Position numbers and translations under genes: made by a program. Below, in pieces: positions 35,429 through 46,267 of a stretch of DNA of 64,000 bases; within the stretch, counting starts at the first letter, position 1; each line of letters begins with the position of its first letter. Location: positions 186,001-250,000 of the forward strand of contig JACJOC010000065.1 in the NCBI GenBank assembly GCA_014695345.1, written 5' to 3'. Origin of the DNA: Cyanobacteria bacterium FACHB-471 (lineage in GTDB: Bacteria; Cyanobacteriota; Cyanobacteriia; Elainellales; Elainellaceae). Below the pieces are notes generated by a model, which saw nothing but the letters and a program-made list of their open reading frames with translations, did no database searches and was not told the origin of the DNA.

Positions 35429-36757
35429 CTACAGTTGACTCCGGGCTTTCAGTTGCAGATAGCGATCGACCAGTTGTTCCGTAATCTGATTGGCAGGTGT
35501 ATCCAGAATTAACACACCTCTTTGCTTGAGAGTTGCTAGTGCTACCTGACGCTGTGCCAATAGATCTAGAGCAACAGCACGGGCGTAGGTGCTGGGAATA
35601 TCCTGAGTTAGCGTGTGAGCCTGCACGTCAATCTGGGGATCGCGCAGAGTGACGCAAAAGGGCAGATAGCGGGGAGCCAAGCGACCCATCGAGAGCAGCA
35701 GCTCTGACGAGGCGGTTTTGTCTACCAGATCGGTGATTAAAACGACCAGGGCGCGGCGAGTGTGCTGACTGGTGACGTGGGTGATGGCTCCAAGATAGTC
35801 GGGTTCTAGCAACACAGGGTGAATGGGCGTGAGGCGTTCGATGAGTTTGGTGAGTTGGGTTTGTCCACGTTCCGGGGGCACCCAGACCTGCATCTGCCGA
35901 TCGAATACGCCGATACCGACGCGATCGCCCCGATTCAATCCCGCTAATGCTAGTGAAAGAGCTGCGTTCAGCCCCCAGTCAAATCGAGCCAATCCCTTCA
36001 CCTGAGCCGTCATCAGCCGTCCCCGGTCAAGCAAGATCATCAGCGTTTGTTCTTGCTCTGGTTCCAATACGCGCAGCAGCAGCCGACTTCGACGAGCAGT
36101 CGCTTTCCAGTCAATTAGGCGGGGATCATCGCCTGTGCTGTATTCTCGCAACTCCGCAAACTCGGTGCCCATGCCCAACCGTTTTGCTCGACGAATGTTG
36201 CCGCTGTTTTGCAGGGACAGTCGCAGGGAGAGCGATCGCAGCCCTAGCAAATCAGGATAGACGGCTACTGTTTGCGGTTGAGGAATGCGCCAACTGTGCC
36301 ATGCCAGTCCCCAGGCTCCAAGCTGTCGCACCTGAATATTGCCAAACAGATATTCACCTCGCTTTGCCGGAAAAACGGTGTAGGTGACTTCCTCCTCGCG
36401 GTTGGGCGGTAGCGTCAGTTCCAGCAGCGGTGGAGTGGCAGTAAATTCTGGTGGGTAAAAGTCACGGATTTGCAAGGTAGCGGGGCGATCGCCCGACTTC
36501 ACTGTTAACCGAACTGGATTTTCCTGCCCAATTGAGAGCCGCTGGAGTGACTCACGAGATACCTTCACCTGGCTGGATTTGACACGCTGGCTATCCCAAA
36601 AAGCCAAGCCCAGGATCAGGACATCCCAGGTCAGGGTGAGCCCTAATGCAACCAGCAGCAACGCTGGACGGGTATTGCCACTGCCAAAAGCAGCTAGACC
36701 CAGCCCTACCCCAGTTCCAAGCAAGAGCAATTGGTAAACGCGAGGAGCAGGGATCAT
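35429..36757 (-). CDS. DUF58 domain protein
   Basis: A 442-residue membrane protein. Two hydrophobic segments at the start (about residues 8-50) anchor it; the rest is soluble. The DUF58 signature is EFAELREYSTGDDPRLIDWK, followed by a von Willebrand-A-like region (LMILLDRGRLM, LVVLITDL). It is the fourth gene of a minus-strand operon, and its ATG overlaps the MoxR stop codon (ATGA). DUF58 proteins are nearly always paired with MoxR ATPases, likely as their substrate or partner on the membrane. Confidence 0.9.
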   Translation of the reverse strand: MIPAPRVYQLLLLGTGVGLGLAAFGSGNTRPALLLVALGLTLTWDVLILGLAFWDSQRVKSSQVKVSRESLQRLSIGQENPVRLTVKSGDRPATLQIRDFYPPEFTATPPLLELTLPPNREEEVTYTVFPAKRGEYLFGNIQVRQLGAWGLAWHSWRIPQPQTVAVYPDLLGLRSLSLRLSLQNSGNIRRAKRLGMGTEFAELREYSTGDDPRLIDWKATARRSRLLLRVLEPEQEQTLMILLDRGRLMTAQVKGLARFDWGLNAALSLALAGLNRGDRVGIGVFDRQMQVWVPPERGQTQLTKLIERLTPIHPVLLEPDYLGAITHVTSQHTRRALVVLITDLVDKTASSELLLSMGRLAPRYLPFCVTLRDPQIDVQAHTLTQDIPSTYARAVALDLLAQRQVALATLKQRGVLILDTPANQITEQLVDRYLQLKARSQL

Positions 36758-37704
36758 CGCGGCACCGCCACCTGATTCAGCAAAGAAGACACCACGCCAT
36801 CCAACTGGAGTCCGTCAAGCTGGGCTTCGGGACGCAGGATCAGACGGTGACGCAGTAGGGGAGAGGCGATCGCCTTCACATCATCGGGCGTGACGTAGTC
36901 TCTGCCCGACAGCCAGGCCCTTGCCTTGCTTGCCTGAAGCCACGCCACTGCTGAACGGGGAGACGCGCCCAGCGCCAGGTCGGGATGTTTGCGGGTGCGG
37001 TGTACCAGTCCCAGCAAGTAGTCCAGCAAATTCTCAGCGACTTGGATCGAGCGAATTGCCTGACGCGCCGCTAATACGTCTGCCACTGTTGCCAGGGGCT
37101 TTAGCTCTACCAGGTCGAGCCGCTTAGTTTGCAGCCCGGCTTGAGCATTGAGCAGCATTTGCTTTTCGGCTTTTGGTTCTGGGTAGTCCACAATCAGCTT
37201 AAACAGGAAGCGATCGAGTTGCGCTTCGGGCAAGGGGTAGGTGCCTTCAAACTCCAGCGGGTTTTGCGTCGCGATCACCCAAAACAGATCTGGCAGGGGC
37301 AGGCTCTGCCCATCGAGCGTTACCTGCTGTTCTTCCATTGCTTCTAGCAGGGCTGCCTGAGTTTTGGGCGGAGTGCGGTTAATCTCATCTGCCAGCAGAA
37401 TTTCGGTGAAAACGGGCCCTTGCTTCAGCGTGAAGTTGCGTGTGTTCAGGTCAAAGATGTTGGTACCCAGGATGTCAGAGGGCAGCACGTCAGGCGTAAG
37501 CTGAATTCGCCGGAAATCTGCCTTTACCAGTCGCGCCAGCGCCCGGACAAGTAGCGTTTTGCCTGTACCAGGTACGCCTTCCAAAATCACATGCCCCCCC
37601 GATAGAAGAGCGACCATCAGTTCTTGAACCAGATTGGGCTGACCCACCACAATTTGGCTGAGGGCTTTACCGAGACGAATAAAGGTCGTGTTGGAGTCGT
37701 TCAC
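36754..37704 (-). CDS. MoxR-family AAA+ ATPase
   Basis: A 316-residue MoxR ATPase, thought to work as a metal-insertion or assembly chaperone together with DUF58/von Willebrand-A proteins. Walker A GVPGTGKT is at 43-50, Walker B in EILLADEINRTPPKTQ, sensor 1 in WVIATQNPLEFEGTYPLPEAQ with the family's EAQLDRF arginine region, and the C-terminal lid has GASPRSAVAWLQASKA. It lies 28 bases after the DUF4350 stop and overlaps DUF58 by four bases. The operon order is the standard one for this system. Confidence 0.95.
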   Translation of the reverse strand: MNDSNTTFIRLGKALSQIVVGQPNLVQELMVALLSGGHVILEGVPGTGKTLLVRALARLVKADFRRIQLTPDVLPSDILGTNIFDLNTRNFTLKQGPVFTEILLADEINRTPPKTQAALLEAMEEQQVTLDGQSLPLPDLFWVIATQNPLEFEGTYPLPEAQLDRFLFKLIVDYPEPKAEKQMLLNAQAGLQTKRLDLVELKPLATVADVLAARQAIRSIQVAENLLDYLLGLVHRTRKHPDLALGASPRSAVAWLQASKARAWLSGRDYVTPDDVKAIASPLLRHRLILRPEAQLDGLQLDGVVSSLLNQVAVPR

Positions 37705-37732
37705 AAGCTGGATTTTGATTTGAATAATTGAT

Positions 37733-38953
37733 TTAAATAACTGAATTGGGTAGGTGACGACGCATTGTCCTCACTCTATCCAACCAAACTAGCAACTCCC
37801 GTTCGCTGATCTGAGCATGATTATCAGCTAAATCAAAAATTTCTGCTAACTCGGCGGCAGGTCGTCCGGTTTGCTGAGCCCAGGCAGCAGCAACGACTTG
37901 TGGTTCCAGTAGGTCAGTTCCTAAACCGAGCGATCGCTGCACATTCAGTTGCTCTGCTTCGCCGACCATTTCTACCACAAACTTACTAGAGTTGGCTTTT
38001 TGTAAAACGCCTGCCATTGCTTGAATGTAAGCTTTGCTGTTGTCCACAGGGGGAGTTTCTAGGGCGATCGCTGGACCCAGCCGCCGATGCCCCAAAATCA
38101 ATACCAGCAGCATGATCCCCGCCTGTACAGCAACTAACACTAGCGGCGTTTTCGCTAGATAGAGGAGGATGTTTTCTGAATTTTCCTGGGCGATCGCCGC
38201 TTCATCTTTGTAGCCGTGAGAATATTCGTCCACCCAAATCGGATTACCAATTTCCGTCAGCAGTTGCGCCAAAAACTCAAAATTTCCTGGCTCATTCTGG
38301 TAGGCATTGGCAGCAAGATGGGACGAAGTAGAAAGAATGATGCGCCCCCGTCCCACTGTTTCTTGCCAGACAATGGCTCCGTGGCCATCTCTCAGCAAAT
38401 CCTCAAATTCCCACTCGTTCATTCCAGGTGCAGAAAAAGATTGGGTTTGCAGCGAACGGCGGCTCGTCTCAACTTTGACACCACCTGCCGAACTTTCCAG
38501 CGTCGAACTGAATGGGGCTGCTGTGACCGTTCCCCTCACGCCTAACAGCACCAATACATTGCCCTGAGCGATCCAATCCCCATCAAACAGATTCAGAGGC
38601 AACCCACTGCTGACTTGCACCAGCGTCATTGGGGTAGCCGGTGCTGCTTGCGCTAATGTGCTATCCATCTCCGGAGCATCCATCGCTGGATCATCAACTC
38701 TGGGGAAACGAATTGGCACCGTATCAGGATTGTCAGTTCCAGGTTGCGGTTCAAGCAATTCCTCAAGCGGTCTTTGCCAACGCTGCACGGGAGTGCCCCG
38801 CTCTTGCATGTAGGCATACCAGGCTCCATAGCCATCGGGCGATCGGCTATAGGTTGAGCCTTGCATCAGGCGGCTAGTGCGGGGAGCAAAAACCAGAGTG
38901 AGCACAATCAGAACCAGCACAACGCCCAACCACAGCCGATATTTCTTGATCAT
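37733..38953 (-). CDS. DUF4350 domain protein
   Basis: A 406-residue membrane protein. It starts with a membrane segment (LWLGVVLVLIVLTLVFA), then the DUF4350 region (SRSPDGYGAWYAYMQERGTPVQRW, LSTSSHLAANAYQNEPGNFEFLAQLL), a second membrane segment near residue 270 (LVLVAVQAGIMLLVLIL) and a soluble helical C-terminus. Its ATG overlaps the DUF4129 stop by four bases. DUF4350 proteins occur with MoxR and DUF58; the fold resembles GATase-like proteins, but no enzyme activity is known. Confidence 0.85.
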   Translation of the reverse strand: MIKKYRLWLGVVLVLIVLTLVFAPRTSRLMQGSTYSRSPDGYGAWYAYMQERGTPVQRWQRPLEELLEPQPGTDNPDTVPIRFPRVDDPAMDAPEMDSTLAQAAPATPMTLVQVSSGLPLNLFDGDWIAQGNVLVLLGVRGTVTAAPFSSTLESSAGGVKVETSRRSLQTQSFSAPGMNEWEFEDLLRDGHGAIVWQETVGRGRIILSTSSHLAANAYQNEPGNFEFLAQLLTEIGNPIWVDEYSHGYKDEAAIAQENSENILLYLAKTPLVLVAVQAGIMLLVLILGHRRLGPAIALETPPVDNSKAYIQAMAGVLQKANSSKFVVEMVGEAEQLNVQRSLGLGTDLLEPQVVAAAWAQQTGRPAAELAEIFDLADNHAQISERELLVWLDRVRTMRRHLPNSVI

Positions 38954-39558
38954 GGCTGAATCTCCTGGTAAGCCTGCCAGCAGCGCTCAAATGTGTCGGA
39001 TGAGATCGCAGTGTCGCTAAAGCAGAGTTGTTCATGGGTGCGAATCAGCGTTTGATAGGGCTGAGGTGGGTTGAGCGTCTGCACCAGACGCAAATATTCG
39101 CCATCGGTGCGGCTCAACTGCTGCAGGATCAGTTCTTTGTCGTTCAAGTTTTGCAGCATTGCCATGTAGAGACAGCGACAGGCTTCGCGGTAGTCTCCTT
39201 GCTGCTGGGCAGTGCGCGATCGCCCCAACCACTCTGAAATGGTTAAGATTTGGGGTTGAGCGTCGGTTGATGGAGCGGGCGATCGCCCCAGTCGCACGGC
39301 AGGATAAAGGTAAGGATTGAGCAATTTGTAAAGTTGCCAGCCAGCCCAACCGACTAGAGCAATCACGAGCAGCCAAAATAGTCCTTCTAGCAACCAGTCA
39401 GGTAGTGACCAATCAAGGACTGGCTGACGATTTAGGTCGTTGCCAAACAGCAATCGTTCGATGAATTCTCCAACCCGTTGCTGCGCCTGTTGAAGTTGCC
39501 AACCCAGACTATTCTTCTGAAATTCGCCCGCTGTCTCAGTTTCGTTTGCTCCGACCAT
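38950..39558 (-). CDS. DUF4129 domain protein
   Basis: A 202-residue protein with one membrane segment (about residues 58-77, LLEGLFWLLVIALVGWAGW) and a C-terminal DUF4129 domain showing EACRCLYMAMLQNLND, RTDGEYLRLV and HEQLCFSD. It is the first gene of the four-gene MoxR operon. In other bacteria DUF4129 is often fused to transglutaminase domains or found next to DUF58 and MoxR. The GNAT gene lies 15 bases upstream on the same strand, so the operon may start with it. Confidence 0.85.
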   Translation of the reverse strand: MVGANETETAGEFQKNSLGWQLQQAQQRVGEFIERLLFGNDLNRQPVLDWSLPDWLLEGLFWLLVIALVGWAGWQLYKLLNPYLYPAVRLGRSPAPSTDAQPQILTISEWLGRSRTAQQQGDYREACRCLYMAMLQNLNDKELILQQLSRTDGEYLRLVQTLNPPQPYQTLIRTHEQLCFSDTAISSDTFERCWQAYQEIQP

Positions 39559-40578: not shown

Positions 40579-43257
40579 ATGAAAACAACCCAGCCTCACG
40601 CGATAACGGCGAGGCCTAACCCCTTGCTTCAGCATCGCATGTTCAATGAAACTCACTACAGCGAGAAAATTCAGGCAGAAATTGAGCAGAGGTTTGGATT
40701 TTTTCCGCCTTTCTTTGCCCCAGCGATGCAGAACCCTCTGGTGCTAGAAAATCTGTGGCAGCAGACTCTTCAGCTCTATGTCAACAATCCACTGCCTGCT
40801 TTATTTAAGGAAAAACTTTCTGCTTATTTGTCTCGCTTTTGTGCGGTTCCGTACTGCATGATTTGTCACAGTTGTTCCCTGTTTGAGTTGGGAATGGAGT
40901 CGCGCCAAATTCTAGAATTGCTAGAATCTTCTCCCCCTACCGAAACTGAAATTGACCAGCATCTAGACTTTTTGGCAAAACAATCCGCTCCACTAGAGTT
41001 TCCGGAGCCAAATTCTGGGCTGGAAGCTAGCATCCTAACCTGTGCGATTTTTATTGCCCTGCAACATGATCGGGCTGAGTGTTGCCGCACTGAGCTACGC
41101 CGATTGTTGGGAACGACACTCTATCAATATCTAACTCTTTTTATTGCTTATATTAGAACTTGCCATACTTGGATGGAGTCAAATCCAGATGTGGTCAATG
41201 AGTCTGATCTACGAGTTCAGAACTATTTTCAAGATTTAACGGAAGGTGAGCCTGCACTGGCTGACTTCTTTATGAACTATTGGGAACGGGTGCAGCGCGA
41301 TCGCCAAACCTGGGCAGCTCAGCAAGCGGCGATCGCTGAACGCAAACGCAGTGAAGCCGCGATACGAGACATCGCAGTCGAAAACCTGCGCCTAGCTCGC
41401 GTAGTAGCTGCCACCTCAGAGGGCATCCTGATTACTGATCCCAACCAGCCCGATAACCCAATCATTTACTCGAATCCAGCCTTCTCTCGAATCACAGGAT
41501 ACGAGCCAGAGGAAATCATCGGGCGCAACTGTCGCTTTTTGCAAGGCGCAGACACCGACCCTCAAACAGTTGCTCAGCTCAGGCAGGCAATTCAGCAGCA
41601 GCAAGAGATCAAAACCACACTGCTGAACTACCGCAAAGACGGACAACCCTTTTGGAATGAGCTAAAAATTTCTCCGGTTTTATCAGAAACGGGTGAACTG
41701 CTCTACTTCGTTGGATTCCAAACTGATGTAACTGAGCAAAAACAGGCAGAACAAAAAATTTGTGAACAGGCTGCTCTGCTCGATGTCGCCACAGATGGGA
41801 TTTTTGTCCGTGACTTAAACCATCAAATTCTGTTTTGGAGCAAAGGCGCAGAACGGCTCTACGGCTGGAAAGCAGAAGAAATTCTAGAGCAAAATGCGAT
41901 CGAGTTACTCAATCCAGTCACCACACCTCAACTCACTACTGCCTTCAAAACCGTTGTTGAAACTGGGGAATGGCAAGGTGAGTTACAGCAAGTGACTCAA
42001 ACCGGCAAGCCAATCATGGTTGAAAGCCGCTGGACATTGATGCGTGACCAGTCTGGGCAACCTAGAGCCGTTTTAGTGGTCAACACCAATATCACCGAGA
42101 AAAAACAGCTTGAAGCGCAGTTTCTCCGAGCCCAGCGGATGGAGAGTATTGGCACCTTGGCCAGCGGCATTGCCCACGATCTGAACAATGAGCTAACTCC
42201 GATCTTGGCGTCAGCACAACTGTTGCTAATGCACTCCAAAATTCAGGAGAACAAACGCCAGCAGCTGTTAGAAAACATTCAAAACAGCGCCAAACGGGGT
42301 GCAACTTTAATTAAGCAGGTTCTCTCTTTTGCACGAGGTGTAGAAGGCAAGCGAACGGTGCTGCAAATCCGACATTTGATATCAGAAATTCGGCAGATCG
42401 TTCAAGAAACTTTTCCCAAATCGGTTGAGGTTCATTTAGATTTACCGAACGATTTGTGGCTAGTGTCTGGAGATGCAACGCAACTCCACCAGGTACTGAT
42501 GAATCTCTGTGTGAATGCTCGGGATGCGATGACGGACGGGGGAATGCTGAGCCTGAGTGCAACAAATCTGTGGATTGATGAAAACTATACGCGAATGAAC
42601 CTAGATGCTCAGATTGGTGCATACGTGATGGTTTCAGTCGCAGATACGGGAATGGGCATTCCTCCAGAAGCACTGGATCGAATCTTTGAACCCTTTTTCA
42701 CTACAAAAGAGTTAGGTAAAGGAACAGGTTTAGGACTTTCTACGGTGCTTGGCATTGTCAAAAGTCACGGCGGTTTTGTGGAGGTCTTAAGTTCGGTTGA
42801 CAGTGGCACCCAGTTTAAGATCTATATTCCTGCGGTGCAGGATGTTGAGACACTGTCTGTCCAGGAAGATGAACCTGTGTCTGGTGAAGGTGAGTTAATT
42901 TTAGTCGTGGATGATGAGGCTGCTATTCGAGAGGTGAATCAAGCTTCGTTGGAAAGCCACAATTATCGAGTGTTAACCGCTTCTGATGGGATTGAGGCGA
43001 TCGCCCAATATGTTCAGCGCAAAGATGAAATTAATCTGGTGTTGATTGATATGATGATGCCCTCAATGGACGGCATGACGGCAATTCGCACACTCAAAAA
43101 AATTGATCCGCAGGTAAAGATTATTGCAGTCAGCGGGCTTTTGTCTAACACCCAAATTCCTGAACCTGTAAACTCCAATATTCAGGCATTTTTGCCCAAA
43201 CCTTACACTGCCAAGGAATTGGTGAGAACAATTCATCAAGTGTTGCAGCAAAAATAG
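40579..43257 (+). CDS. AhpD-like/LOV/PAS hybrid histidine kinase
   Basis: An 892-residue soluble sensor kinase. Residues about 20-235 resemble an AhpD/carboxymuconolactone decarboxylase domain (FGFFPPFFAPAMQNP, then VPYCMICHSC with Cys93 and His97 in the conserved places, Val90 where AhpD has its first Cys). Residues about 265-380 are a LOV domain with the flavin-adduct Cys318 in GRNCRFLQGADTDP and NYRKDGQPFWN. A second PAS follows (about 385-510), then HisKA with His533 in HDLNNEL, an ATPase domain with GMGIPPEALDRIFEPF and GTGLGLS, and a C-terminal receiver with Asp824. It should be a blue-light receptor with a redox-type N-terminal module. Confidence 0.92.
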   Translation: MKTTQPHAITARPNPLLQHRMFNETHYSEKIQAEIEQRFGFFPPFFAPAMQNPLVLENLWQQTLQLYVNNPLPALFKEKLSAYLSRFCAVPYCMICHSCSLFELGMESRQILELLESSPPTETEIDQHLDFLAKQSAPLEFPEPNSGLEASILTCAIFIALQHDRAECCRTELRRLLGTTLYQYLTLFIAYIRTCHTWMESNPDVVNESDLRVQNYFQDLTEGEPALADFFMNYWERVQRDRQTWAAQQAAIAERKRSEAAIRDIAVENLRLARVVAATSEGILITDPNQPDNPIIYSNPAFSRITGYEPEEIIGRNCRFLQGADTDPQTVAQLRQAIQQQQEIKTTLLNYRKDGQPFWNELKISPVLSETGELLYFVGFQTDVTEQKQAEQKICEQAALLDVATDGIFVRDLNHQILFWSKGAERLYGWKAEEILEQNAIELLNPVTTPQLTTAFKTVVETGEWQGELQQVTQTGKPIMVESRWTLMRDQSGQPRAVLVVNTNITEKKQLEAQFLRAQRMESIGTLASGIAHDLNNELTPILASAQLLLMHSKIQENKRQQLLENIQNSAKRGATLIKQVLSFARGVEGKRTVLQIRHLISEIRQIVQETFPKSVEVHLDLPNDLWLVSGDATQLHQVLMNLCVNARDAMTDGGMLSLSATNLWIDENYTRMNLDAQIGAYVMVSVADTGMGIPPEALDRIFEPFFTTKELGKGTGLGLSTVLGIVKSHGGFVEVLSSVDSGTQFKIYIPAVQDVETLSVQEDEPVSGEGELILVVDDEAAIREVNQASLESHNYRVLTASDGIEAIAQYVQRKDEINLVLIDMMMPSMDGMTAIRTLKKIDPQVKIIAVSGLLSNTQIPEPVNSNIQAFLPKPYTAKELVRTIHQVLQQK

Positions 43258-43259
43258 GA

Positions 43260-43318
43260 GCGAAGCATTCGGACAATTACTTCCGCTATTTTCCCAAGTC
43301 GCCTGCCGAATGCTTTGC
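43260..43318. repeat. inverted repeat between kinase and SpoIIM genes
   Basis: GCGAAGCATTCGG (43260-43272) pairs with CCGAATGCTTTGC (43306-43318) with one G-T pair. It lies three bases after the kinase stop and extends into the 3' end of the convergent SpoIIM gene, encoding its last residues. Confidence 0.7.
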
Positions 43319-44275
43319 CCCTACAGGGTTTTGTTGCCTGAGATAGATCATTAACCCAATAAATAGCCCCGTCCCCACAATATATTTCAGCAAATCGGGA
43401 ACTCCGGGATTGGGTGAGAAAAAGCCTTCAATGAACCCGGCGATCACTAGCATCGGCACCACACCAAAAATCAACTCAGCCGCTTGTTGGGCGTAGAGCT
43501 TCAGTGCATCAACTCGACGATACTGTCCTGGAAATAGGATGGCTCTGGCAAGCAGCAAGCCTGCTGCGGCTGCTAAAAAGATGGCGGGAATTTCTAGAGA
43601 ACCGTGTGGAAAAACAAATGCCCAAAATGGATAAGCCAAATTGTTTTGCCCCACCAGAGCAGCGATCGCCCCAATCAGCGCTCCATTCAGCAGCAAAATG
43701 TAGGTGGTCAGCAGTCCAGCCGTGATTCCGCCTGCCAGAGCCATAAAAGAGACTTGGATGTTATTGATCAGAATATTGGTTGAGGCAAACGGCTCAATTC
43801 CAACAATGGAACCCATCCAAAGTTCCTGGCGATCGCGCACCTGTACAATCAAATCCTGCGGCACAATCAGCGATAGAAAAGTTGGGTCTTGCCACGCCAG
43901 CCACCAGCTGACTAACCCTGCAAAAATGGCCAAAGCCGCCGCCAGCGCAATGTAACCCGCCGATCGCTGCACCGCAGCCGGAAACCCCCAGCGATAAAAC
44001 TCTAAAATGGCTTGCCATTCCTGCCGCCGTGACCCCTGATAGATTTGAGCATAGCTACGGGATGCCAAACTCTGTAAATCTTGCAGCAGCAACTGTCCGA
44101 CATTTTGGCTGCGGGCCCGCGCCAAGTCTGCTGATACTGAACGATAGAGGCTGGCTAACTCTCGAATTTGATGTGCCTCAAGCGTCTTTAGCCCGCGCTT
44201 CTCAACCTGGTTAAGCAAGGCATCTAGCTGTTTCCAGCTTTTTTCCCGGCGGGCAATCCAACGCTGAATGTTCAT
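43286..44275 (-). CDS. SpoIIM-like membrane protein (stage II sporulation protein M family)
   Basis: A 329-residue polytopic membrane protein. The soluble N-terminal helical part (residues 1-95, LEAHQIRELASLYRSVSADL) precedes about six membrane segments; the family loop SFMALAGGITAGLLTTYILLLNG and FPHGSLEIPAIFLAAAAGLL are present. Non-sporulating bacteria carry such proteins next to RDD, DUF4129 and MoxR genes. The last ten or so codons fall in a dispersed repeat, so the C-terminal tail is not ancestral. It diverges from the next membrane-protein gene. Confidence 0.88.
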   Translation of the reverse strand: MNIQRWIARREKSWKQLDALLNQVEKRGLKTLEAHQIRELASLYRSVSADLARARSQNVGQLLLQDLQSLASRSYAQIYQGSRRQEWQAILEFYRWGFPAAVQRSAGYIALAAALAIFAGLVSWWLAWQDPTFLSLIVPQDLIVQVRDRQELWMGSIVGIEPFASTNILINNIQVSFMALAGGITAGLLTTYILLLNGALIGAIAALVGQNNLAYPFWAFVFPHGSLEIPAIFLAAAAGLLLARAILFPGQYRRVDALKLYAQQAAELIFGVVPMLVIAGFIEGFFSPNPGVPDLLKYIVGTGLFIGLMIYLRQQNPVGAKHSAGDLGK

Positions 44276-44381
44276 ATTTTTTTACTACTGTTGGAGGCTT
44301 GTCTCAGCGTAGCTTAGGATAGCGTCAACTTCCGCCTTCACTTCTACATACGACATTATTAAAATTACGGGTAGATTGTTT

Positions 44382-45341
44382 ATGACTGCTAACCCCAATC
44401 CTCAAAATCTGGTGCAACCGCTCGACGTCGGTAATGTGGTCAGTGCCGGAATTCAGCTTTACCGAACTCACTTTCAGCAATACATTGGCATTTCTCTAAT
44501 CGCAACGCTGTGGGCACTATTGCCCTTTTTGTTGATTATTCCAATTATCTTGTTTTACACCGCAGTTCAAGCATATTACGGCACTTTAGGATTAGTGATT
44601 CCAGCTTGGATAGTCTTGACGATCTATTGTTCGGCTAAATATTTTGCTGGAGCAGGAGCGATCGCCCGCCTCGCCTTCACCACCTTAGTCAACCAACCTG
44701 AAAGCGTTGAAAGTGCAAAAAGATATGCCGACTTTCGCATGTGGAGCTTTTGGAATATCAACTTTTTGCTGTTGCTGATGTACTTAGGAGTGTACTTTGT
44801 GGCAGTGATTGCACTACTCATTGTCTTGGCTGCAACTGGAGCGTTCAGTTTACTCACCAACCCTGACCCATTCGCTCTTACCAGCAATCCAGGACCACTG
44901 ATCCTCACTGGTTTGTTTGTCTTACTCCTGGTGCTAGCAATTGTGTTTGTGTTCGTCTGGCTCAGTTCTCGACTGGCAGTTGCCGATTTGCCACTTGCAG
45001 TCGAAAGCGGCTCGAACGCTACACAATCCCTTGGACGCAGCTGGAATTTAACTCACAAAAGTGCTTGGCGAATTGCTCTAATTCTTTTTATTGCGTTTTT
45101 GATTACGATTCCTCTGCAGGCTCTAGCTCAGATATTAGTTAGCACATTTGACTCAATCCTAGCTGCCTCATTTCCACGAGAGTCTCCCACTTTTGCGCTG
45201 TTATCCTTCTCGACTAGCTATATTTTAGGGTTGGTTGCAGGTGTGTTAGTGTTACCTCTCTGGCAAGCGATCAAAGCAGTGATTTACAGCGATTTGCGCA
45301 GCCGCCGAGAGGGGTTGGGGTTAAAGTTACGCGATTCGTAA
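44382..45341 (+). CDS. multi-pass membrane protein, unknown family
   Basis: A 319-residue protein with about six membrane segments. It starts with a soluble LVQPLDVGNVVSAGIQLYRTHF part that resembles the membrane domain of glycerophosphodiester phosphodiesterase-like (DUF7544-type) proteins, and ends with a basic SDLRSRREGLGLKLRDS tail. The ATG at 44382 was chosen over a TTG two codons earlier. It sits between SpoIIM and RDD genes and is likely part of the same membrane group. Function unknown. Confidence 0.7.
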   Translation: MTANPNPQNLVQPLDVGNVVSAGIQLYRTHFQQYIGISLIATLWALLPFLLIIPIILFYTAVQAYYGTLGLVIPAWIVLTIYCSAKYFAGAGAIARLAFTTLVNQPESVESAKRYADFRMWSFWNINFLLLLMYLGVYFVAVIALLIVLAATGAFSLLTNPDPFALTSNPGPLILTGLFVLLLVLAIVFVFVWLSSRLAVADLPLAVESGSNATQSLGRSWNLTHKSAWRIALILFIAFLITIPLQALAQILVSTFDSILAASFPRESPTFALLSFSTSYILGLVAGVLVLPLWQAIKAVIYSDLRSRREGLGLKLRDS

Positions 45342-45347
45342 TAGGAC

Positions 45348-45415
45348 TCCTGCGTGAATGGTAGTGCGGCTTCGCTGCGCTACTATTCACGCCTCAAAAA
45401 GTGATTCACGCAGGA
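45348..45415. repeat. hairpin with alternative right arm
   Basis: TCCTGCGTGAAT (45348-45359) can pair with ATTCACGC at 45385-45392, giving a longer stem 45352-45392, or with ATTCACGCAGGA at 45404-45415. It follows the membrane protein gene and precedes the RDD gene. Confidence 0.65.
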
Positions 45416-45463
45416 TGTCTAACTCACTAAAGTCTAGAAATTGCCTATTCAGGACTACACACC

Positions 45464-46267
45464 ATGCGCCTTTTCAATCGAATCACACTCTTAACTCCAG
45501 AAAGTGTAGAACTGGAGTTTACCCTAGCAGGGATTGGCAGCAGAGCCTTGGCATTGCTGATTGACTATCACATTGTCGCGTTTACGCTGATTGCTTTGTG
45601 GCTGCTTCTAGCATTGATTGCAGGGCAACTGCTTGGTTACCTGGATACCTTGGGATCAAATTATGCGGATTTACCCATTTGGCTACTGGCGATCGCCATC
45701 CTCATCACTTTTGTGATCGCCACTGGCTATTTTGTCTTCTTTGAGGTGACCTGGCAGGGACAAACCATCGGCAAACGGTTCGCTAAAATTCGCGTCATTC
45801 GAGATGATGGTAGACCTGTAGGTTTATCTCAGGCAGCACTGCGTGCTCTGTTGCGTCCGATTGATGACATTCTGTTTATTGGTGCTTTCCTGATCCTATT
45901 AGGACAAAAGGAAAAGCGAATTGGGGATTGGGTCGCAGGAACGCTGGTGGTACAGGAAGTTCGTCCAGTGGTGAAGGCAGCGATCGCTGTTTCTCAAGAG
46001 GCAGAAAAACTGGCCGCCGAATTACCCCAAATCACTGACCTATCAAAACTGTTGCCGGATGATTTTGCCGTGATTCGAGAGTATCTTCAAAGGCGAAACT
46101 TTATGGAGCGCAACGCCAAAAGTGAGTTGAGTTTACAGTTAGCTCGACAAGCCAGAAACTTGATTAACCTTGAAACCATTCCTGCTGGACTCACTTCAGA
46201 TGAGTTTTTGGAAGCCGTTTATTTGGCTTATCAGCAACAGGAGAGAGGAATCAGGGATGAGGGATGA
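45464..46267 (+). CDS. RDD family membrane protein
   Basis: A 267-residue RDD protein. It opens ESVELEFTLAGIGSRALALLIDYHIV, the RDD N-terminal motif, has about four membrane segments, and in the middle carries the family motif GQTIGKRFAKIRVIRDDGRP followed by RALLRPID. The C-terminal 80 residues are soluble and helical. RDD proteins with SpoIIM, MoxR, DUF58 and DUF4129 form a conserved membrane cluster. Export or ion transport roles have been proposed for other RDD proteins; none is shown here. Confidence 0.88.
   Translation: MRLFNRITLLTPESVELEFTLAGIGSRALALLIDYHIVAFTLIALWLLLALIAGQLLGYLDTLGSNYADLPIWLLAIAILITFVIATGYFVFFEVTWQGQTIGKRFAKIRVIRDDGRPVGLSQAALRALLRPIDDILFIGAFLILLGQKEKRIGDWVAGTLVVQEVRPVVKAAIAVSQEAEKLAAELPQITDLSKLLPDDFAVIREYLQRRNFMERNAKSELSLQLARQARNLINLETIPAGLTSDEFLEAVYLAYQQQERGIRDEG

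Follow-up and report, generated by a model that had tools for sequence, protein, structure and literature searches.

In a genome of the cyanobacterial order Elainellales (Cyanobacteria bacterium FACHB-471), the 64,000-nucleotide stretch of DNA analysed here (the window) carries a gene for a LOV-type hybrid histidine kinase whose first 264 residues have no Pfam match above threshold. The question raised by this locus is what the N-terminal part is, and what it may sense alongside light. An earlier note, made from the sequence alone, had described the protein as an AhpD-like, LOV, PAS and hybrid-kinase chain; Pfam, a structure model and comparison with solved LOV domains show this order to be correct, and the residues that had been named (Val90, Cys93, Cys96, His97, Cys99, Cys318 in GRNCRFLQ, and His533) are all present.

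Gene architecture and the LOV domain

The open reading frame at 40579-43257 of the window (+ strand) is intact, starts with ATG and encodes 892 aa, with the following features.

40579..43257, + strand: whole gene, 892 aa, with AhpD-like, LOV, PAS, HisKA, HATPase_c and receiver domains from N- to C-terminus
40660..41298, + strand: AhpD-like input domain, residues 28-240 (AlphaFold2 model, structural matches, hhalign)
41251..41412, + strand: single predicted helix, residues 225-278, leading from the AhpD-like domain into LOV (pLDDT about 59-82)
41416..41733, + strand: LOV domain, residues 280-385, with N317-C318-R319, Q322, N350, N360 and Q381
41530..41532, + strand: Cys318, the predicted flavin-adduct cysteine
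41770..42114, + strand: second PAS domain (Pfam)
42151..42339, + strand: HisKA domain, phospho-acceptor His533 in AHDLNN (Pfam and residue check)
42469..42834, + strand: HATPase_c domain with N, G1 and G2 boxes NLCVNARDAM, DTGMGIP and GKGTGLGLS (Pfam and residue check)
42898..43233, + strand: receiver domain, predicted phospho-acceptor Asp824 in LVLIDMMM (Pfam and residue check)

Pfam reports PAS (twice), HisKA, HATPase_c and Response_reg, and the protein thus has what defines a hybrid histidine kinase, namely HisKA with its histidine, HATPase_c and a C-terminal receiver with its aspartate. Inspection by eye showed neither a signal peptide nor a membrane-spanning stretch. The kinase is probably cytosolic, with two stacked inputs. 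A scan for promoters and terminators gave sites no more numerous than in shuffles.

The full LOV motif claimed in the earlier note was confirmed both by sequence (GRNCRFLQ with Cys318, E 1.6e-39 to the solved LOV structure 9vf7) and by fold (Z 20.0 to 9vf7), and the flavin-contacting residues N350, N360 and Q381 align with those of solved LOV domains. Because all LOV features of sequence and fold that were tested are present, light sensing by this domain, with predicted flavin binding, is very likely. The LOV histidine kinases Brucella LOV-HK and Caulobacter LovK likewise carry a canonical LOV domain with the reactive cysteine ahead of the kinase (in LOV-HK ahead of PAS and kinase), whereas the window protein has HisKA instead of an HWE kinase, a C-terminal receiver and, at its N-terminal end, the AhpD-like domain. 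The redox sensor of LovK is reportedly the flavin of its LOV domain. When residues 1-404 were modelled, helix 225-278 entered the LOV domain and helix 385-403 left it; the model was built from only seven sequences and has a pTM of 0.55, so that the relative placement of the domains in it is not trustworthy.

Fold and origin of the N-terminal domain

An AlphaFold2 model of the N-terminal domain, built from 37 homologous sequences, is helical with a mean pLDDT of 89.2 and has an AhpD fold over residues ~21-221. Its top structural matches are AhpD or peroxidase-related proteins (2pfx, Z 13.9; 3c1l, 13.7; 6k40, 13.6; 2prr, 13.3; 6e8l and 2oyo, 13.2), with 171 residues aligned at an rmsd of 3.2 in the first of them, followed by Sestrin2 chains of the GATOR2 complex at Z 9.5 and 9.3, and unrelated folds at ~4. 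Since arrangement alone can bring helical bundles to Z 13, and Foldseek gave a probability of 1.00 with an E of only about 0.01 (0.013), independent sequence evidence was sought. Profile-profile alignment by hhalign with four cyanobacterial peroxidase-related proteins gave a probability of 96% and an E of 2e-9 over 88 columns, and in it C93 and H97 line up with the cysteine and histidine of AhpD. The NCBIfam model TIGR01926 matched 13 of the 37 homologues weakly (best E 1.4e-4); in searches of the window protein and its homologues, none rose above the TIGR01926 cut-off and Pfam CMD (PF02627) gave no match.

Taken with the model, these results bear out the AhpD/CMD-like domain that had been proposed ahead of LOV, and the predicted structure of residues 20-235, on which the earlier note had staked that proposal, came out in favour of the fold. 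Judged by predicted fold and profile alignment, the N-terminal domain is derived from the peroxidase-related AhpD family and appears as a putative signalling input. Other family names came up as weak Pfam and PDB matches, in a scattered way not common to the homologues (DUF4186, E 0.03; P450 chains, E 0.4), and were set aside; a profile search of PDB sequences also returned weak matches to designed repeats and NUP58.

Conserved residues and what the domain may sense

The conserved residues of the domain are the following.

40810..40812, + strand: Glu78, matching by spacing and alignment the relay residues Glu118 of M. tuberculosis AhpD and Glu36 of PA0269; kept in 58 of 59 homologues
40840..40875, + strand: motif C88-A-V90-P-Y92-C93-M-I-C96-H97-S-C99, at the position of the AhpD active site (homologue alignment)
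41161..41166, + strand: Cys195-His196, with C195 in 59 of 59 and H196 in 55 of 59 homologues; H196 is present in the Pseudomonas homologue too

The AhpD relay is formed by E118/C130/H132/C133/H137 in M. tuberculosis and by E36/C48/Y50/C51/H55 in PA0269 (PMC3141380). The spacing of E78/V90/Y92/C93/H97 here is that of the literature, and four of the five relay residues are kept: the glutamate, the His/Tyr position, the second cysteine and the final histidine are conserved as E78, Y92, C93 and H97. The exception had been pointed out before, with Val90 in place of the first cysteine of CxxC and Cys93 and His97 retained, and each of the 59 distinct homologues has Val, Ile or Leu there and thus lacks the CxxC of an AhpD enzyme. 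Ordinary AhpD disulfide chemistry is therefore unlikely, the first catalytic cysteine being missing. Cys88 sits two residues ahead of the valine that replaces it. Across the 59 distinct homologues, E78, Y92, C88, C93, C96, H97, C99 and C195 show near-absolute conservation, the five cysteines being kept in 57-59 of them, as against a mean per-column identity to the window protein of 54%. This conservation rules out chance or a composition artefact, and it enlarges the thiol set named in the earlier note: C93, C96 and C99 are all present, and the full set also includes C88 and C195. The peroxidase-related proteins (TIGR01926; PDB 2pfx, 3c1l, 6k40, 2oyo, 2prr; PA0269) thus share with the window protein the fold (Z 13.9-13.2), the helical hairpin and the Glu/Tyr/Cys/His relay spacing, and differ from it in the Val/Ile/Leu at the first CxxC position, the additional C88, C96, C99 and C195, and the fusion to signalling proteins.

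Our preferred reading, which we regard as having an even chance of being right, is that of a hybrid kinase receiving blue light through LOV and thiol redox state or peroxide through an AhpD domain whose catalytic site has changed, with a single long helix connecting the two. Blue light would be read by LOV through its flavin and Cys318, and C93, activated by E78, Y92 and H97, would be oxidised by peroxide or a partner thiol and then pair with C88 or C96. The change in the AhpD-like domain would travel along the continuous helix 225-278 into LOV, which is the direction of signalling that we infer, and light and thiol redox would jointly control how far His533 is autophosphorylated and the phosphate passed to Asp824. 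The conserved C93 relay and the conserved second thiols suggest that the signal is thiol oxidation, for which we put the odds at about even; the AhpD-like domain probably reports the redox state of the cell, and integration of light and redox in one protein is plausible. Kinase sensing by cysteine oxidation has a precedent in ArcB (PMC4601167), and LovK, as referred to in PMC6798134 (its reference 40), is a precedent for one kinase sensing both light and redox.

The same cysteines could instead hold an Fe-S cluster or another metal, through C93xxC96xxC99 together with C88 or C195, and make the domain a sensor of O2, NO or iron; we consider this unlikely. Five near-invariant cysteines and a histidine in Cyanobacteria, three of them in C-x2-C-x2-C spacing, speak in its favour, yet the CxxCxxC stretch is predicted to be helical, whereas ferredoxin-type sites lie in loops. 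C96, C99 and C195 are missing in a Pseudomonas homologue described below, and the single or paired cysteine losses in four divergent homologues argue against one indispensable four-cysteine site. These have kept the domain and lost C88 and C93 (L072), C96 and C99 (L069), C96 (L070), or C93 together with H97 (L080); there is accordingly no thiol pair that every member needs, which also counts against the preferred reading. The model for a metal-binding domain of this kind would be NreB of Staphylococcus, a known cytosolic O2-sensing kinase with a four-cysteine [4Fe-4S] domain (PMC4601167), which resembles the window kinase in having a conserved cysteine set in an N-terminal sensor and differs from it in that this sensor is a PAS domain with a demonstrated cluster. 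A c-type haem at the CXXCH string C93-x-x-C96-H97 was also considered and is not favoured, given that no export signal or membrane stretch was evident by eye and that the string is absent in the Pseudomonas homologue.

A second alternative, to which we give similarly little weight, is that a small molecule binds in the former active-site pocket of AhpD and that the thiols have a structural role, a change of use comparable to that of the Sestrins, AhpD-fold proteins that turned into sensors of leucine. Sestrin2 of the GATOR2 complex, a leucine sensor (PMC11429811), is one of the structures that the model matched. Sestrins resemble the window kinase in having an AhpD fold turned to sensing and signalling, and differ in being eukaryotic, with two fused AhpD-like halves, a leucine site and no kinase. 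In some divergent members E78, Y92, H97, H196 and W198 persist where cysteines have gone, and a set of nine sequences, the Pseudomonas homologue among them, has Glu, Tyr, His and Trp but no Cys among its invariant residues, which would also fit ligand binding. Against this, 57-59 of 59 homologues keep the five cysteines, and in a cytosolic protein a purely structural role is a poor explanation for such conservation.

Distribution, exchange and relation to known systems

The AhpD-like domain was found in seven of the 36 genomes of the order (single-protein search) and in 11 of a sample of 386 genomes from across the phylum (profile search), and a peptide-pattern scan of 84,980 species genomes, with patterns biased to close relatives, gave 44 loci, all cyanobacterial. 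Phages and viral contigs yielded no relatives. In ten architectures checked with Pfam it stands ahead of LOV-PAS-HK-REC, LOV-GAF-HK, GAF-PAS-HK-REC, PAS-HK-REC, PAS-HK, multi-PAS hybrids and GGDEF-EAL. The AhpD-LOV order is not a one-off, although the earlier note knew no described example of the exact domain order: it occurs at seven distinct loci (the window, L020, L023, L037, L025, L012, where the LOV motif is GCNCRLLQ, and L076). It does lack a published description as far as we could find in the open-access literature, the coverage of which is incomplete.

When presence of LOV is mapped on a tree built from the N-terminal domain, five changes are needed, two of them forced by well supported branches; the AhpD-LOV pairing was therefore made or lost more than once. 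The same genome holds a second kinase (L004) with the AhpD-like domain and PAS and without LOV, as well as a REC-LOV-PAS-HK-REC kinase (L002:1132-3426) that shares the LOV-PAS-HK-REC part (63% identity, residues 253 to 891) and has a receiver where the AhpD-like domain stands here. Judged from these comparisons, the AhpD-like domain is a recurrent, apparently exchangeable cyanobacterial input domain. Its occurrence ahead of PAS, GAF and LOV kinases and GGDEF-EAL, and of its Pseudomonas homologue upstream of an HWE core, counts in favour of the proposed mechanism. That it might be a dimerisation or localisation module without any sensing, the protein being simply a LOV kinase, is by contrast quite improbable: AhpD-fold proteins are oligomeric and the domain runs straight into a long helix, but active-site-like residues are among its best conserved, and it is also paired with outputs without LOV, including GGDEF-EAL.

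Several further observations concern single loci. In a divergent multi-PAS protein (L073:1477-3510) the AhpD-like domain is missing the entire Cys/His motif and keeps TCHxW near the domain end. At L019:1444-2082 and L061:4944-5582 the domain lies in an open frame of 213 aa without an in-frame output domain, either a solitary protein or a broken gene, and in the cyanobacterial protein L074:1453-2805 a peroxidase-related AhpD-like domain is fused to a C-terminal one that by eye resembles DUF3179.

The kinase gene lies inside a cluster (window 35429-39558 and 43286-46267) of genes read by eye as DUF58, MoxR-type ATPase, DUF4350, DUF4129, SpoIIM-like and RDD. Among the loci compared, this arrangement is common only to the same-genus loci L010 and L020; the others have different neighbours, and a conserved gene partner was rejected. 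At L027, L028, L034, L035 and L052 a LuxR/NarL-like response regulator lies upstream of the kinase gene, and four of these five also have an upstream membrane kinase with an N-terminus that is ethylene-receptor-like by eye.

Outside Cyanobacteria, a plasmid collection yielded one homologue, a 260-aa protein on a plasmid of Pseudomonas sp. HR96 (31% identity over 196 residues, E 5e-8), which retains E78, C88, V90, Y92, C93, H97 and H196 and is without C96, C99 and C195. At this locus (L115:3956-5347, NZ_CP139142.1) the homologue is annotated as hypothetical, an HWE kinase core follows directly downstream in the same frame with one TAG codon between, and a response regulator comes after the core; these are either two genes of one operon or a single gene interrupted by a stop codon. 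With this single non-cyanobacterial sequence as its base, the comparison suggests that C88 and C93 belong to the wider family and C96, C99 and C195 to the cyanobacterial branch.

LOV kinases, hybrid kinases and AhpD folds are already known, and the AhpD fold is familiar from peroxidase adaptors and from the eukaryotic Sestrins, which sense leucine. Within the open-licence literature covered, neither an AhpD-derived input domain nor such a domain fused to LOV appears to have been described, and AhpD is absent from a 2022 census of the sensory inputs to c-di-GMP signalling. As a tentative wider view, the domain might form a sensory class of its own, not described before, in which an AhpD fold has been remade as a multi-cysteine redox or metal (possibly Fe-S) sensor ahead of kinases and c-di-GMP enzymes, and which in combination with LOV would let one protein weigh blue light against the redox or oxygen status of the photosynthetic cell. 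A bacterial AhpD-fold signalling domain in kinases and c-di-GMP enzymes, missed by Pfam and NCBIfam models, would add an input class to cyanobacterial signalling, and the AhpD-LOV fusions offer a testable case of light and thiol redox, which are linked in an oxygen-making phototroph, being brought together in one protein.
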